DNA from: Candidatus Zixiibacteriota bacterium
GTDB taxonomy: Bacteria; SM23-81
NCBI GenBank assembly: GCA_030628225.1
Contig: DAOVRJ010000134.1
Span: forward strand, 1-6,840
Direction of reading: 5' to 3'
Length of the DNA: 6,840 bases
In this document: positions 176 through 6,840 of the stretch, piece after piece
Layout: each line of letters starts with the position of its first letter
Numbering within the stretch: position 1 is the stretch's first letter
Notes under the pieces: model-generated
Database searches by the model: none
Seen by the model: only the letters and a program-made list of their open reading frames with translations
What the model was told of the DNA's origin: nothing
Translations under genes and position numbers: made by a program

Positions 176-1414
176 ATGATGTGGGCGACGTTCCTTAATA
201 AATTGCGCTGGAGCTATCAAAAGAACGCACCGGATCTAATTACTTTGTTCCTGCGCAACTATCCGGATTTCGTATTTAGCAGAGGAACAGTGCCGATAGG
301 CAATGAAATCCCCGTTTTTGTTTTTCACTCAGTTGAGCCAGTATCTTTTGAAGAGAAATTGGCATTTCTGGCAGGCAATAATTACAGGACATTGAATGGA
401 GAGGAGTTTCGGGCGGCAATTGCTGGAGAAACCCGGGAATCGGAACATAGTGTACTTCTGACATTTGACGATGGTATTGCCACACTGTGGACAGTTGCCT
501 TTCCCCTGCTTCAAAAGTATGGTTTTAAAGCAGTCAGTTTTATCATTCCAGGATGCATACCCGATCATGTACCTGAATCGCCGACCTTTATTGATTATGA
601 AAAGAAACGGATTCCGGCAAAATCGCTATTGGCCCGGGAACAGGGCAACTACCCTTTGTGCTCATGGCAGGAAATCAAGGAGATGCATGCCAGTGGGGTG
701 ATCGATTTCCAGTCACATACAATGTACCACCACAGGATTCATGTGTCGTCCCTGTTGGTTGATTTTATTCATCCCAACTTTGATTTTCATTTTCATTCAA
801 ATGTGAATGTGCCGGTTTGCCGCGTTCGGGGGAAGTTGGACTTTGCGCGGAAGATGCCGTGGGGTACCCCGGTATATCGGTTTGAGCCGGTCATGCAAGG
901 CCATTTGCAGTATTTTGATGACCAAACGGTACGAGCTGCTTGCGTTGAACACGTACTTCGCTGGGGCGGCGAAAAATTCTTCATACGGAAAGACTGGCGG
1001 AAGCGGCTTCAAAAGGTCCATCACCAGGCCTGTCAATGCAAGGACAACGGAGAGTATGAAACGCCAGCCGGGCAGGAAAAAGCAATTTTTGAAGATATAC
1101 GACAGGCGAGGGTAATAATTGAAGGGCATTTGCCGGGGAAAACCGTCGATCAACTGTGCTATCCCTGGTTTATAGGCAGTCCTTTGGCGGTCGAGCAATC
1201 CCGTCGGGCTGGCTATCGCGTAAATTACTGGGGCATTTTCCCGCGGCGTAAAACAAACCGGCCGGGCGATGATCTATTCTATGTACCACGTATAGAGGAT
1301 CAATACATTTTCCGCCTGCCGGGAAAAGGGCGTAAAAGCCTGATGGAGATAGTGACCAAAAAATTCAGGACCAACATGCCGCATTTTGTTCGTCGGTTAA
1401 AGATCGATGCTTAA
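176..1414 (+). CDS. polysaccharide deacetylase family protein (NodB-type)
   Basis: A 412-residue protein with the carbohydrate esterase 4 / NodB hallmarks, expected to remove acetyl groups from a glycan through a metal-dependent mechanism. Residues 46-53 (PVFVFHSV) match the usual first strand ('PVLMYHRV'). TFDDG at 96-100 gives the catalytic-base Asp98 and metal-ligand Asp99. SHTMYHH at 180-186 gives the H-S/T-x-x-H metal pair His181/His185. CYPW at 328-331 matches the third motif (R-x-P-[YF/W]). The gap between motifs 2 and 3 is about 140 residues against roughly 40 in compact NodB domains, so about 100 residues are inserted; the inserted part includes an aromatic/His-rich stretch (202-208) and a basic segment (271-282). 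No signal peptide or membrane segment is visible, so a cytoplasmic or peripheral location is likely. Start: ATG 176 or 179, with only a weak AAGG (163-166) upstream; an in-frame TGA at 158-160 excludes earlier starts. It probably modifies the polymer made by the adjacent glycosyltransferases; the substrate is not readable from sequence. Confidence 0.88.
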   Translation: MMWATFLNKLRWSYQKNAPDLITLFLRNYPDFVFSRGTVPIGNEIPVFVFHSVEPVSFEEKLAFLAGNNYRTLNGEEFRAAIAGETRESEHSVLLTFDDGIATLWTVAFPLLQKYGFKAVSFIIPGCIPDHVPESPTFIDYEKKRIPAKSLLAREQGNYPLCSWQEIKEMHASGVIDFQSHTMYHHRIHVSSLLVDFIHPNFDFHFHSNVNVPVCRVRGKLDFARKMPWGTPVYRFEPVMQGHLQYFDDQTVRAACVEHVLRWGGEKFFIRKDWRKRLQKVHHQACQCKDNGEYETPAGQEKAIFEDIRQARVIIEGHLPGKTVDQLCYPWFIGSPLAVEQSRRAGYRVNYWGIFPRRKTNRPGDDLFYVPRIEDQYIFRLPGKGRKSLMEIVTKKFRTNMPHFVRRLKIDA

Positions 1415-1565: not shown

Positions 1566-2558
1566 ATGTTTAAGAAGATAACGAATAGCAAGATATTCTT
1601 TTACCTGAGACTAATCTTCGGGATCATTCTTCTTTTTCTGCTTCTCAAGATGGTTGATTTGCAGAAAGTAATGACGACTATCATCTCTGCAAAGCCTGAG
1701 CTGGTGATCATTGGATTTGTGGGTCTTCTGATAGATCGCATATTAATGGCCTACCGCTGGGTGCTTCTCCTGTGGGTCAAAAAACTTGAGATTCGTTTCA
1801 TTCATGTCGTTCGCATTTACTTCCTGAGTACTTTCCTGGGTAACTTCTTGCCATCTACCGTAGCTCCTGATATCGTGAGGATCTACTGTGTTTCGAGAAG
1901 CACGTCCAACTCAAAAGTGGTCATCTCGTCTATGGCTGTTGACAGAATTATTGGCAATTTCTCCCTTGCGATTTTGACAATAATTGCGTTCTTTATTCTT
2001 CAGCTTACAGGTGCCCTTAAGTTGGATCCAATTGCCTGTTATACTATCTTGGCGTTTCTTCTGATCAGCATAATGCTTCCATTTATCATATGGCATCCTA
2101 GGGCCACAGGTGCGATATCACGGCTGATTCGCCGGAAAAAAAGAGGAACTTGGTCGAAAAAGATCCTTGAGGTTTGTGACGTTTTTCTATCATACAGGGA
2201 TCAGCGAACAACTCTCGGTAAAGTGCTGTTGGTCGCCTTCCTCAATCAACTTGGGTCAATACTTGTCGTTTATGTGCTCGCCCTGGCTTTCGCAAGCACG
2301 GTCTCACCACTGTATTTCCTGCTGTTTGTTCCTCTGGCGAGCTTCTTAGCCATGTTGCCCGTTTCAATAGGAGGAATAGGGGTCTTAGAAGGCGCCATTG
2401 TCTTTTTTTTCTCACGGCTGGGGATGTCGATCGAGACATGTCTTGCCCTTGCGCTTCTTTATCGGACGATGCTGCTGGTGGCGACCTTGCCTGGCGGAAT
2501 TATCTATGCTGTTGAGGGGCTTTCTGTAAAAAAAATATCGATGGGCAAAAACTGCTGA
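1566..2558 (+). CDS. flippase-like integral membrane protein (LPG synthase TM / AglD family, formerly UPF0104)
   Basis: A 330-residue, strongly hydrophobic protein with about seven to eight membrane segments by eye (near 10-28, 44-62, 81-97, 130-150, 156-175, 217-240, 242-264, 290-315). Three family signatures are present in the right order. FLSTFLGNFLPSTVAPDIVR (86-105) corresponds to the 'fl.n.lLPg..GgDvvR' loop. AVDRIIGN (124-131) corresponds to the conserved 'eR..g' segment. LPVSIGGIGVLEGAI (264-278) corresponds to 'lP.s.gGlGvrE'. Proteins of this family include the transmembrane part of MprF and archaeal AglD and are commonly found beside glycosyltransferases, where roles in lipid-carrier handling or translocation are proposed rather than proven. 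Length is normal for a stand-alone member. A basic cytoplasmic-type loop (185-205, RLIRRKKRG...KK) separates the two halves. The first signature has PSTVAPD where most members have PG-x-x-GGD, a mild deviation. Start ATG 1566 has a modest AAGAG (1551-1555) upstream. Confidence 0.85.
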   Translation: MFKKITNSKIFFYLRLIFGIILLFLLLKMVDLQKVMTTIISAKPELVIIGFVGLLIDRILMAYRWVLLLWVKKLEIRFIHVVRIYFLSTFLGNFLPSTVAPDIVRIYCVSRSTSNSKVVISSMAVDRIIGNFSLAILTIIAFFILQLTGALKLDPIACYTILAFLLISIMLPFIIWHPRATGAISRLIRRKKRGTWSKKILEVCDVFLSYRDQRTTLGKVLLVAFLNQLGSILVVYVLALAFASTVSPLYFLLFVPLASFLAMLPVSIGGIGVLEGAIVFFFSRLGMSIETCLALALLYRTMLLVATLPGGIIYAVEGLSVKKISMGKNC

Positions 2559-2597
2559 TGAAGAAAAGCGCTGCCGGAAACCCCGCTTTTGGCGGAA

Positions 2598-2627
2598 CTT
2601 GCTTAAGGAAGGTCTGCTCAAAGCAAG
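2598..2627 (+). terminator. hairpin downstream of the flippase-like gene, possible terminator
   Basis: CTTGCTT (2598-2604) and AAGCAAG (2621-2627) form a perfect 7-bp stem with a 16-nt loop, 39 nt after the stop codon at 2556-2558. It is followed by CTTTA rather than a long T-run, so intrinsic termination would be weak; it may instead protect a 3' end. A smaller GC stem, CCGC/GCGG (2583-2586 with 2592-2595), lies just upstream. Confidence 0.3.
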
Positions 2628-2722
2628 CTTTAGGCGAAATGAGATAGTGAGAGAACAGATTTTTCGGCAAGACAGACTCAGAATTGTAGTTATTGCTCGA
2701 CTGTATAAATTTTAACAAATTC

Positions 2723-2779
2723 GTCATAAAAGCGACCGATGTATGACTCTAATGATTTGGTGATTAATTCTTGTATGAC
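2723..2779 (+). promoter_or_regulatory. candidate enhancer (upstream activating) sites: TATGAC repeats
   Basis: TATGAC occurs at 2742-2747 and 2774-2779, each preceded by TG, giving TGTATGAC 32 nt apart. Its inverse, GTCATA, lies at 2723-2728, so the first two form a dyad with a 13-nt spacer. They sit about 119, 100 and 68 nt upstream of the transcription start predicted from the sigma-54 element (about 2842), the range where sigma-54 enhancer-binding proteins usually bind. The 32-nt spacing is about three helical turns, so the two direct copies face the same side. Assignment is inference from position and repetition; the cognate regulator is not in the window. Confidence 0.4.
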
Positions 2780-2815
2780 AAAACCTTCGTGATTTTCCAG
2801 CGGTTTGAGACAATA

Positions 2816-2831
2816 TGGCATAGTTGTTGCA
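2816..2831 (+). promoter_or_regulatory. sigma-54 (RpoN) -24/-12 promoter
   Basis: The sequence TGGCATAGTTGTTGCA matches the consensus TGGCACG-N4-TTGCW at ten of twelve defined positions. The invariant GG (2817-2818) and GC (2829-2830) are exactly 12 nt apart, as required. Transcription would begin near 2842, on the + strand, toward the secreted multidomain protein. Sigma-54 promoters need an activating enhancer-binding protein, and repeated TATGAC elements lie upstream in a suitable position. No comparable match was seen in the two other intergenic gaps. Confidence 0.72.
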
Positions 2832-2841
2832 TGATTTTTGT

Positions 2842-3199
2842 GGAAAGGAAGCATCTTTGATCAGCGACACACCGGGAAATAGCTCAAAAAAGCAAGGCTG
2901 TGAAGGGAGCCGACGAACGCAGGACGCCCTGACTAGCTGGCCCACATAGTGTTGTAACGGATTTTGATCTGTTGGCTGTAAGCGGGCGTAAAGAGGGGAT
3001 AGTTCTGTTTACGGATATTTTCCTCGGCAGGTGGTCAACTTTTAAACAAAAATGTATGATGGCGCTTTGAATATAGCTTTTGACGGGCAGGATGACGAAA
3101 GCTTATGCCATTTCACAATAAAGCATGATAATATACAGTAGTAGTGCAATTTCCATGGTGAGAACGTTGTCTCTCTGAAATAGATAGGGGATGTTGCGA
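2842..3199 (+). other. long predicted 5' leader with several hairpins
   Basis: If transcription starts near 2842, the leader before ATG 3200 is about 358 nt, unusually long. Visible stems are GGCT/AGCC (2896-2899 with 2908-2911) and CAGG/CCTG (2920-2923 with 2928-2931). A 7-bp stem with one G-U pair (2956-2962 with 2967-2973, TTTG loop) and CGTAAA/TTTACG (2987-2992 with 3008-3013) follow. None is followed by a T-run, so they do not look like terminators. The leader could carry a regulatory RNA element, but I could not match it to a known riboswitch class. Confidence 0.3.
3186..3190 (+). promoter_or_regulatory. ribosome binding site deciding the start of the secreted protein
   Basis: AGGGG lies directly against ATG 3191 (0 nt spacing) but 9 nt before ATG 3200. 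The spacing favours initiation at 3200 (MNKPMNRVGQ...) over 3191 (MLRMNK...). A further ATG at 3212 is in frame but farther from the site. Confidence 0.6.
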
Positions 3200-6100
3200 A
3201 TGAACAAACCTATGAACAGAGTCGGTCAACGCCTGATTGTCCTGGTCGCTGATCTTTGTTGTCTCACCCTGGCCCTGGGATTTTTTGCTTTTGGAGAGGC
3301 GCAGGGACAGGATGTTCCTCTCTGGGAACGTTTTTCCCGTCAAGTGAGCAATACAGAACCTTATCAGAATCCGTTTCAGGATGTATCGCTTACGGCAACT
3401 TTCACAGCACCATCGGGGAAGACCTATGAACAGTGGGGATTCTATAGGGGAGAACAGCTCTGGGAGATACGCTTCATGCCCAATGAGTTGGGTAGTTGGA
3501 GCTACGAAGGGGGTTTCTCAGATGGTTCCGACAGCGTCTCGGGCAGCTTCACGTGTGTGCCTTCAGACATTCCCGGCCCGCTCAAGCCATACTCGCAGAA
3601 TCAGCGCTGGTTCGCCTCCGCTGATGACACTCCAGTCCTTCTCGTGGGTTACTATACAGACGGTCTCTTCAGGACGAATCAATCTTTTTGGCAACCCTGG
3701 ATTGACGACAAGGTTGCCTTCGGCTTCACTTTGCTCTCCTCGGGACCGTTTGATCTTAATTGGTGCCAGGTGCAGGGCTGTACCGACCGGGCGCCCTGGC
3801 CCGAGAGCGGTGCAGATTTTGACTATACCAGGTTTGACCTGGCCGCCTGGGACGCGTACGAGGAGATCGTCACATACATACAGAGCAAGGGCGTCTATTA
3901 TCACACCTGGGGAGGGTTTCTAGGAGGTACGAACAACTACCCGGCACCTCCCACAGATGAGCTCAAGCGTCTCCATCTGCGTTACGGAGCCGCCCGATTC
4001 AATAGCTACTGGCATCTCATCAACAACAACGTGACAAGCGAGTGGCAGGAGGGATACGACGAAAACACCATGAATTACTGGGGAGAATTCGTGGGCAACC
4101 TCTATCCTTTCCATATGGGTTCAGTTCATCCATTGGATGTCGGTCTTCATACAACCGGGGATCTTGCTTATGATTGGATTACTTACGACAGCTCCCAGAA
4201 GGCTACTTACAGCCAGTTCATCGAGTCTTTTAACCTTTCTGGACGTCCCCAGTTATCCACCGAGGAAGTCTGGTGGCCTATTCCTCAAAGTTCTGCCACA
4301 GAGAGGAGGAGGGCAGCCTGGAGCTTCACCATGGGGGGAGTAAGTGGTTTCCTGGGTGGCAAGAACAGCGATGGCAGTTTGGAACCCCCGGAAGGCAATT
4401 CTTTGAACAAAGGAGATCATAAAATCCTCTCCGAGTTCATGCATTCTATTGCCTTTGGACAAATGTCACCGCGGGATGACTTGCTGGTATCAAGATCGAA
4501 CAGCGACATTCATCTGCTGGCGCACCATGGTTCTGAATATGTCATTTACTTCCCGGCTGGTGGAGATATCACGATCGATCTTTTTGGAGCAGGGGGGGGT
4601 CTTGAAGTGGAATGGCTCAACCCACAGACCGGAGATATTACTTTCCTGGATCCCGTTCCCGGCGGGGGTGAGCAAAGTTTCGCAGCGCCGGACACAGATG
4701 ACTGGGTTTTACACTTAGGAGGGTTGCCACCCGATGAGACCCCGCCCACCGTTCCGCAAAATCTAGATGCTACTGCCCAAAGCGAGGATCAAATTGATCT
4801 CACCTGGCAGGCATCCAGTGATCCTGAGTCAGGTGTCAGTTACTACAAGATATATAGAGATGGCATGAGTGTGGGGCAACCCTCCAGCACCTCATTCTCG
4901 GACACAAACCTTGATGAAAACACAACATACACTTATGAAATAGCTGCAGTGAACGGGGTAGGACTGGAGTCGCAAAAGAGTGCCCCTGCTCTAGCAACGA
5001 CCTTTGCCGACACGACTCCTCCCACCATCGCATCCGTGTCGGTCATCAGCACCACCCAGCTTGACGTGCAATTCAGCGAGCCCGTTGAGGAGATCTCTGC
5101 TGAGAATGAAGTCAATTATGGTATCGACCACGGAATCGTTGTCTTTAATGCCAACCTGGACCTGGATTTATCTACGGTGCACCTGACAACAAGCGAGCAT
5201 GTCGAGGAGATTATTTATACCATCACTGTGAACAACATCCAGGACAGGGCATCGATTCCCAATACCATAGAGCCAAACAGTTCTGCTAACTACCAGATTG
5301 TTCTTGAGCTTGAGGTTTCCAATCTGAGCAAAGAGGACTACCGGACCGCAGAGCTGGGAGTGGGGGATCAGTACTATGTGGATCGTGCCTATACTATTAT
5401 TAACGTTCCGCCGGAGTATGAGGGGCTGTTGTGGATTAAAACGGCCAACGATGACAAGCTTGGCACCTTAGAGCAGTTCCTTACCTTTACGGTGAACCAG
5501 AATGTGACCGTGTATGTTGCCTATGACAATCGGGCTTCTAGCTTGCCTTTTTGGGTAACTGACCATTATACCCCGACGGGTGCGGGGATCGGGGTCAGCG
5601 ATGTGGACGCCTCGCCCCTTCAGTTGTGGGCTCGGGATTTTCCCGCTGGAGACGTGGTCATGGGGGGAAACAGGGCTGAGGGTGCCAGTGGAGCGGCGAG
5701 CATGTATGTTATATTGCTTCGTGGCTATGGTCCTGCTGCCGATACAACAGCGCCACTTATTTCTCAGGTGGCCGCCACCGACATCACCGATTCCACGGCG
5801 ACCATCCAGTGGTCCACGGATGAGCTCTCGGATTCCCGGGTCGAGTACGGGCTGACCATCGCTTACGGTTCGATGACTCCTCTGGACACAGCCATGGTCT
5901 CTCAACATAGTCTCGGTTTGTCAGGTTTAATGCCCGGGAGCCTATATCATTACAGGGTTCAAAGTACGGATGGTACGAGCAATACAGCCCGCTCCGAAGA
6001 TCATACCTTTGAGGCCAACGATGAGACCCCACCGCAGATTTTTTCCATCGAGGTCTCGGCCCTCTCGGACAGCGCGGCGACCGTCGGCTGGTCCACAGAT

Positions 6101-6634
6101 GAGCCGGCCGACTCCAGGGTGGAGTATGGATTAACCCCCGGTATCTATGATTGGTGTGTGGAGGATACGTTCCTGGTGGTGTCACATAGCCTCGAGCTGG
6201 TCGGCCTGACCCCGGCCACGACGTATTTTTTCTGCGTTCGAAGCCAGGATGCAGCGGACAATGTCGCCACATCAGCAGAAAGCACCTTCGTGACCCTTGA
6301 GACCGGCGATGAGACCCCACCGCAGATTTTCTCCATCGAGGTCTCGGCCCTTTCGGACACAGGGGCGATCATCGGCTGGTCTACGGACGAGTTGGCTGAT
6401 TCCAGGGTGGAGTATGGATTAGCTCCTGGTTTCTATGATTGGTCTGTGGAGGATACGCTCCTGACGTTGTCGCATAGCCTCGGGATAATCAGCTTGACCT
6501 CGGCCACACAATATCATTTTCGCGTTCTAAGTCAAGACACATGGGGCAACGCCAGCACATCTCCGGATTGCACCTTCGTGACCAAGCACGAATTGCCTGG
6601 TCCTCCGGGGAAGCCGGAGCATTATGACGATTAA
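3200..6634 (+). CDS. secreted multidomain glycoside-hydrolase-like protein (DUF5060, DUF4038-like barrel, Ig/FN3 stalk)
   Basis: A 1144-residue exported protein; numbering is from ATG 3200 (the longest frame starts at 3191). Residues 1-36 form a Sec signal peptide: basic start, hydrophobic core 11-31, likely cleavage after AQG. Residues about 40-122 resemble DUF5060 (GFYRGEQLWEIRFMPNELGSW near 79-99). Residues about 130-430 resemble the TIM-barrel glycoside hydrolases grouped with DUF4038. Acid candidates are Glu281 (SEW) and Glu355/Glu356 (TEEVWWP), followed by the typical ERRRAAWSFTMGG (368-380). Residues about 429-507 match the small beta domain called 'putative collagen-binding domain of a collagenase', ending DWVLHL. 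Then come an FN3 domain (513-604), an Ig-like domain (605-702, 'LDVQFSEPV'), a YVDR/TANDDK/VYVAYD module (703-845), and three FN3-like repeats (848-938, 941-1036, 1037-1132) with SRVEYG, like the N-terminal domain of purple acid phosphatases. It ends in a short polar tail without PEP-CTERM, LPXTG or membrane anchor. It probably acts outside the cell on a polysaccharide, possibly the product of this locus; substrate and activity are unproven. Confidence 0.82.
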   Translation: MNKPMNRVGQRLIVLVADLCCLTLALGFFAFGEAQGQDVPLWERFSRQVSNTEPYQNPFQDVSLTATFTAPSGKTYEQWGFYRGEQLWEIRFMPNELGSWSYEGGFSDGSDSVSGSFTCVPSDIPGPLKPYSQNQRWFASADDTPVLLVGYYTDGLFRTNQSFWQPWIDDKVAFGFTLLSSGPFDLNWCQVQGCTDRAPWPESGADFDYTRFDLAAWDAYEEIVTYIQSKGVYYHTWGGFLGGTNNYPAPPTDELKRLHLRYGAARFNSYWHLINNNVTSEWQEGYDENTMNYWGEFVGNLYPFHMGSVHPLDVGLHTTGDLAYDWITYDSSQKATYSQFIESFNLSGRPQLSTEEVWWPIPQSSATERRRAAWSFTMGGVSGFLGGKNSDGSLEPPEGNSLNKGDHKILSEFMHSIAFGQMSPRDDLLVSRSNSDIHLLAHHGSEYVIYFPAGGDITIDLFGAGGGLEVEWLNPQTGDITFLDPVPGGGEQSFAAPDTDDWVLHLGGLPPDETPPTVPQNLDATAQSEDQIDLTWQASSDPESGVSYYKIYRDGMSVGQPSSTSFSDTNLDENTTYTYEIAAVNGVGLESQKSAPALATTFADTTPPTIASVSVISTTQLDVQFSEPVEEISAENEVNYGIDHGIVVFNANLDLDLSTVHLTTSEHVEEIIYTITVNNIQDRASIPNTIEPNSSANYQIVLELEVSNLSKEDYRTAELGVGDQYYVDRAYTIINVPPEYEGLLWIKTANDDKLGTLEQFLTFTVNQNVTVYVAYDNRASSLPFWVTDHYTPTGAGIGVSDVDASPLQLWARDFPAGDVVMGGNRAEGASGAASMYVILLRGYGPAADTTAPLISQVAATDITDSTATIQWSTDELSDSRVEYGLTIAYGSMTPLDTAMVSQHSLGLSGLMPGSLYHYRVQSTDGTSNTARSEDHTFEANDETPPQIFSIEVSALSDSAATVGWSTDEPADSRVEYGLTPGIYDWCVEDTFLVVSHSLELVGLTPATTYFFCVRSQDAADNVATSAESTFVTLETGDETPPQIFSIEVSALSDTGAIIGWSTDELADSRVEYGLAPGFYDWSVEDTLLTLSHSLGIISLTSATQYHFRVLSQDTWGNASTSPDCTFVTKHELPGPPGKPEHYDD
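6020..6595 (+). repeat. tandem duplication of an FN3-coding unit (2 x 288 nt)
   Basis: Two adjacent 96-codon units, 6020-6307 and 6308-6595, encode residues 941-1036 and 1037-1132 of the secreted protein. By hand alignment about two thirds of residues are identical and there is no length difference. The first 50 or so bases of each unit differ at only about two positions, which points to a fairly recent duplication or to gene conversion between units. A third, more diverged copy of the same domain type precedes them (residues 848-938). Confidence 0.85.
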
Positions 6635-6671: not shown

Positions 6672-6840
6672 GTGTTGCAGAGGTCCAACGCAGTCCAGCG
6701 GGATGGGAAAAGGGTATGTCTTTCCGTGGTCATCCCGGTTTTTAATGAACAGGAAAATGTCCAGCCCGTCTATGCGCAGCTGAAGGAAGTGTTGGAGCAA
6801 CTGGGGCGCAGCTATGAGATTATCTTCGTCGACGATGGCA
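6672..6840 (+). CDS. family 2 glycosyltransferase, N-terminal part (runs off the window)
   Basis: An open frame of 56 codons continues past the right edge. It contains LSVVIPVFNEQENV (18-31), the first strand and nucleotide-binding loop of GT2 enzymes with the GT-A fold. About 20 residues later EIIFVDDG (49-56) appears, whose DD contacts the nucleotide-sugar. The spacing and 'PVFNE.ENV' form resemble the DPM1/ArnC-like group that transfers a sugar to a polyprenyl phosphate, but the distinguishing C-terminal half, including any membrane segments, is not visible. Start: an in-frame TGA at 6663-6665 excludes earlier starts. GTG 6672 and TTG 6675 are both possible, and no in-frame ATG precedes the first conserved strand. 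It lies 37 nt after the secreted protein, on the same strand. Confidence 0.88.
   Translation, partial: MLQRSNAVQRDGKRVCLSVVIPVFNEQENVQPVYAQLKEVLEQLGRSYEIIFVDDG

Follow-up and report, generated by a model that had tools for sequence, protein, structure and literature searches.

We identified TGGCATAGTTGTTGCA, at positions 2816-2831 of the window, as what is quite probably a working −24/−12 promoter for a secreted protein and probably also for the glycosyltransferase gene behind it, within a surface/EPS regulon of several sigma-54 promoters. The window is the whole 6,840-nt stretch of DNA analysed here and corresponds to contig C259 of the 2.34-Mb draft genome G000. Three other genomes of the phylum were compared, and among the related genomes G001 represents a second genus. 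The features of the window are:

176-1414, plus strand: PgaB-like polysaccharide deacetylase-family gene, by domain matches, upstream of the site.
1566-2558, plus strand: gene for an LPG_synthase_TM/flippase-like membrane protein, by domain matches.
2723-2779, no strand assigned: candidate activator sites, with TGTATGAC at 2740-2747 and 2772-2779 (32 bp apart) and inverted TTTATGAC at 2723-2730.
2816-2831, plus strand: predicted sigma-54 (−24/−12) promoter, TGGCATAGTTGTTGCA, by direct reading and motif enrichment.
2842-3199, plus strand: leader of about 350 nt, reaching the hydrolase start.
3032-3060, plus strand: sigma-70-like hexamers TGGTCA-N17-TATGAT in the leader, a rival or second promoter.
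3191-6634, plus strand: gene for a secreted multidomain protein (referred to as the hydrolase) with a signal peptide, DUF5060, a middle part, Collagen_bind_2, fn3 and three Pur_ac_phosph_N (fn3-like) domains.
6672-6840, plus strand: 5′ part of a GT2-family glycosyltransferase gene, with a GTG start after GAGGAGGA, continuing past the contig end.

A first-pass annotation of the window had described a near-consensus sigma-54 site with exact GG-to-GC spacing, and both its sequence and its coordinates proved exact: GG occupies 2817-2818 and GC 2829-2830, with 10 nt between them, and the only mismatch to TGGCACN5TTGCW is a T in place of C at position 2821. Since C and T occur equally often at the matching position of 52 intergenic training sites from three other genomes of the phylum (0.48 and 0.52, respectively), TGGCATAGTTGTTGCA is in effect a consensus site for the lineage. 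The window contains 26 matches with up to three mismatches, a total at the level given by shuffles; TGGCATAGTTGTTGCA is the sole match with one mismatch, and all of the remaining ones have three. The probability of an exact TGGCAYN5TTGCW on the plus strand of the 632-nt intergenic region was P = 0.00135 (first-order Markov simulation), and a chance origin of TGGCATAGTTGTTGCA is unlikely. The site is co-directional with the hydrolase gene downstream. At sigma-54 promoters, RpoN-dependent transcription starts about 12 nt past the GC, and the predicted start is accordingly around 2841-2843. No copies of the window intergenic region were found elsewhere in G000.

The same annotation had placed the promoter ahead of a secreted, hydrolase-like stalk protein and a glycosyltransferase, in agreement with the signal peptide, the glycosidase-type architecture, the fn3-like domains and the GT2-family gene. 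DUF5060 and Collagen_bind_2 both exceeded their cut-offs, the middle 321 aa matched no Pfam family, and a PDB relative described as a ‘putative glycoside hydrolase’ (4n0r) aligned to the DUF5060 part alone; the DUF5060-type protein may be a glycan-active enzyme. A domain search found no PEP-CTERM domain in it, and a structure prediction without alignment was set aside (mean pLDDT 39). Of the start codons ATG 3191 and ATG 3200, the second is the more probable, as it lies about 10 nt after AGGGG (3185-3189). Only 37 nt separate the hydrolase stop from the glycosyltransferase start, a spacing suggesting that the two genes are probably co-transcribed. No hydrolase ortholog was found in the three other genomes at E 1e-10, leaving the window site without a phylogenetic footprint, and none was found in the family, order, phylum or named genome contigs.

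In a whole-genome pattern search, TGGCAYN5TTGCW occurred 17 times in G000 compared to 2 for a backward-read control, and the corresponding counts in three other genomes of the phylum were 18 versus 5, 30 versus 2 and 11 versus 2. About 12 of the 17 exact G000 sites are intergenic or directly ahead of a real start; at least four exact matches (L004, L006, L008 and L016) lie within coding sequence. With a matrix trained on other genomes of the phylum only, the window site scored 21.8 bits. Across the scanned part of G000 (about 0.64 of 2.34 Mb, in stretches partly chosen for holding sites), the density of hits at or above this score was 49 per Mb in intergenic versus 3.5 per Mb in coding sequence, a 14-fold difference that rests on 3 + 2 hits; at thresholds of 11-15 bits, which give more hits, the ratio was about 9 to 12. 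We estimate a false-discovery rate of about 5% for an intergenic hit of this quality. The scan that the first-pass annotation had proposed for other glycan genes with a −24/−12 element thus supports the site, through both the 17-to-2 excess and the matrix enrichment, and EPS and glycan-type genes are among the targets.

A signal-peptide-like start, as called by a simple heuristic predictor, was found behind 9 of 11 co-directional intergenic G000 sites, the window gene included, compared to 34 of 126 background genes with an upstream gap (P = 5×10−4, Fisher test). The G000 targets comprise a PEP-CTERM protein, two proteins with type-IX-like tails, a zinc carboxypeptidase and an SLBB polysaccharide-export protein, and those in relatives include pilin-like, flagellar-rod-like and small heat-shock-like genes, assigned from N-termini only. 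Several sites stand ahead of related genes in both G000 and G001 (L002/L089, L011/L090, L013/L084, L014/L059 and the EPS operon, L005/L085), with relatedness judged from N-termini except for the EPS pair, for which protein identity was used. By eye, we also observed a TTGACA-N17-TAAAAT-like sigma-70 promoter 60-90 nt past the sigma-54 site at L003, L011, L014, L059 and L090, which suggests dual promoters at several secreted-protein genes of G000 and G001.

Given these distributions, we consider it very improbable that TGGCATAGTTGTTGCA is a functionless chance match. Chance matches do arise, as the exact matches within G000 coding sequence indicate, and the window site has no footprint in relatives, but the local P of about 0.0014, the great excess of intergenic over coding density at the window score, and the correct orientation upstream of a gene of the class dominant among the other sites all argue against it.

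The EPS operon of G000 carries a sigma-54 site of its own. On contig C34, a sigma-54 activator gene lies just upstream of this site (TGGCATATATTTTGCT), which is followed by genes coding for an SLBB export protein, a chain-length protein, a kinase-type ATPase, an epimerase and an XrtA-type polysaccharide deacetylase, the last scoring over its family cut-off. A G000 exosortase, accompanied by EpsI, likewise scored over the XrtA cut-off. Gene order and sigma-54 site are the same in the G001 EPS operon, the proteins being 65-82% identical. In both genomes, the stretch from the sigma-54 site to the EPS export gene also codes for a conserved and apparently unannotated protein of about 66 aa (VKVxVQV...VLKYDVxYxxKLxVAxWQLLPGQGELI):

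L040 (C34), about 6172-6372, minus strand: EPS-leader protein of G000.
L172 (C77), about 11954-12155, plus strand: EPS-leader protein of G001.

About 22 kb downstream of the G001 EPS promoter, relatives of the window flippase (28% identity) and of the window deacetylase (38% identity) adjoin one another, and a further flippase relative lies on an EPS/exosortase contig of G002. From the paired relatives in the G001 EPS locus, the window likely forms the distal part of the G000 EPS locus, other portions of which would lie on C34 and C202 in a broken assembly.

Other secreted glycan-type genes of EPS/exosortase loci are also preceded by sigma-54 sites. On C77 of G001, TGGCATAGAAGTTGCG lies 64 nt before the gene for a secreted propeller-like protein (weak GH32 match, E 0.11), after the flippase/deacetylase pair and a GT2 gene; on C173 of G000, an identical TGGCATAGAAGTTGCG lies 344 nt before the gene for a heparinase-II/III-like secreted protein, beside the exosortase:

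L179:11137 (G000 C173): TGGCATAGAAGTTGCG promoter before the heparinase-like gene.
L173:17274 (G001 C77): TGGCATAGAAGTTGCG promoter before the propeller-like gene.

These promoters have a common upstream sequence, GTTCAAATYCTRTACAGT, and BLASTP found no relation between the two proteins, as if one promoter had been kept with differing cargo in two genera. On C75 of G002, the gene behind a sigma-54 site lies near an exosortase and encodes a secreted protein whose GH28 match is below threshold, and the window gene appears to fit this series of satellite secreted glycan-type genes. A DUF5060 protein encoded outside the EPS contig of G001 had no sigma-54 site and had, by eye, a good TTGACA/TAGAAT-type promoter, indicating that the sigma-54 link belongs to the locus and not to the enzyme family. 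The EPS operon's own sigma-54 site, which is conserved in a second genus, and the sites at other secreted glycan-type genes of such loci both cast doubt on the earlier claim that induction of the extracellular enzyme is separate from that of the biosynthetic genes; a separate promoter in a shared regulon appears more likely than a separately induced enzyme.

G000 encodes RpoN and eight full sigma-54 activators. The closest relatives of this RpoN come from Candidatus Eisenbacteria (47%) and Gemmatimonadota, and by these relatives the source organism is non-proteobacterial. Of the parallel with PrsK/PrsR-linked loci drawn in the first-pass annotation, the regulators themselves were recovered, as PrsR (TIGR02915, 579.9 bits) and PrsK (TIGR02916, 396.1 bits) both exceed their NCBIfam cut-offs (502.6 and 300, respectively); the enhancer was not, as the TTTACA core is absent upstream of the window site. 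The TPR gene ahead of PrsK scored below the PrsT cut-off (62 versus 312 bits). On C205 of G000 (L178:5526-10597), genes for a TPR lipoprotein, PrsK and PrsR are consecutive, and a GGDEF gene just downstream has a sigma-54 site ahead of it. Neither TTTACA nor TGTAAA occurs in the 140 nt preceding the window site, which rules out this PrsR enhancer motif there; the motif was present at 5 of 83 sites. PrsR is a possible activator of the window site, but TTTACA is missing there and G000 has seven other activators. The TGTATGAC repeats of the window are not common to other sigma-54 promoters and make a weak candidate. An ACTGTAYA-type activator motif common to the window, C173 and C77 was unconvincing (4 of 78 promoters versus 1.7 expected in shuffles).

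The hydrolase gene could instead be transcribed mainly from a sigma-70-type promoter in the leader, such as that at 3032-3060, or by transcripts reading through from the flippase gene, with the sigma-54 site acting as a secondary, conditional element. We take this possibility seriously without favouring it: six promoter-like sigma-70 sites occur on both strands of 2500-3250 where 1.1 are expected, no terminator was found between the flippase and hydrolase genes, the hydrolase leader is long, and several other sigma-54 genes of G000 and G001 have by-eye sigma-70-like promoters past their sites, but the window-leader hexamers are weak matches (9 of 12) whereas the sigma-54 site is near-perfect. 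It seems highly unlikely that the target of the promoter is not the hydrolase but a small gene or non-coding RNA within the leader. Hidden small genes do occur behind such promoters, as the conserved protein in the EPS-operon leaders illustrates, yet on the plus strand of the window leader all frames are short (20-41 aa), with no convincing small gene, and the leader matched no Rfam family and has an ordinary folding energy (z-score 0.05). A riboswitch was rejected on the same grounds, with no Rfam match in the window leader or in 16 related-site leaders, and apparent homology between the window and C173 leaders came down to short chance matches.

Under the reading that we prefer, a sigma-54 promoter driving the hydrolase gene, RNA polymerase with RpoN would bind TGGCATAGTTGTTGCA, an NtrC-type activator, itself controlled by a two-component kinase or a signal of that sort, would open the promoter, and transcription from about 2842 would run through the gene for the secreted DUF5060-type protein and probably on into the glycosyltransferase gene. 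Transcription from TGGCATAGTTGTTGCA, the action of any one activator on it and co-regulation of the window hydrolase with EPS synthesis are all inferred from the sequence. The regulon would also take in the core XrtA-type EPS operon, the PEP-CTERM protein and other exported proteins. With several promoters in one surface/EPS regulon, enzyme and polymer would each have a promoter of their own and would likely be induced in related conditions, which suggests that synthesis of the polymer and the extracellular proteins that modify glycans may have a sigma factor in common. More tentatively, sigma-54 might control the whole EPS module, consisting of the XrtA-type export operon and satellite promoters with varying secreted glycan enzymes, the window gene being one cargo; if so, a single signal would govern both the production and the remodelling of the cell's matrix.

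The arrangement resembles proteobacterial RpoN/PrsK-PrsR control of PEP-CTERM genes in having a −24/−12 site before a secreted protein gene, in a long intergenic region, in an exosortase/EPS organism, and in that G000 has PrsK, PrsR, an XrtA exosortase and an XrtA-type deacetylase over family cut-offs. In that system, where motif 1 lies about 63 nt ahead of the sigma-54 site and ends with TTTACA, a motif pair and the PrsK/PrsR profile were reported in Proteobacteria only, as of 2006 (Haft et al. 2006, PMC1569441), and RpoN-dependent transcription of a PEP-CTERM gene, with a mapped start, is documented for pepA of the floc-forming Aquincola tertiaricarbonis (PMC9850573). Unlike that system, G000 is non-proteobacterial by its RpoN relatives, the window target is without PEP-CTERM, the TTTACA enhancer was not found, and the core EPS export operon carries a sigma-54 site too; the distance from site to start codon also differs, at about 375 nt in the window versus a mean of 71 in Haft et al. 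(PMC1569441). It is well established that sigma-54 controls exported and exopolysaccharide functions (Francke et al. 2011, PMC3162934), and the sites before exported proteins, pilin-like and flagellar-rod-like genes, the EPS operon and lipoproteins agree with this theme. Our analysis carries the known link between sigma-54 and cell-surface polysaccharides into a probably uncultured lineage of a sparsely sampled phylum, and extends the theme to secreted glycan-type enzymes.
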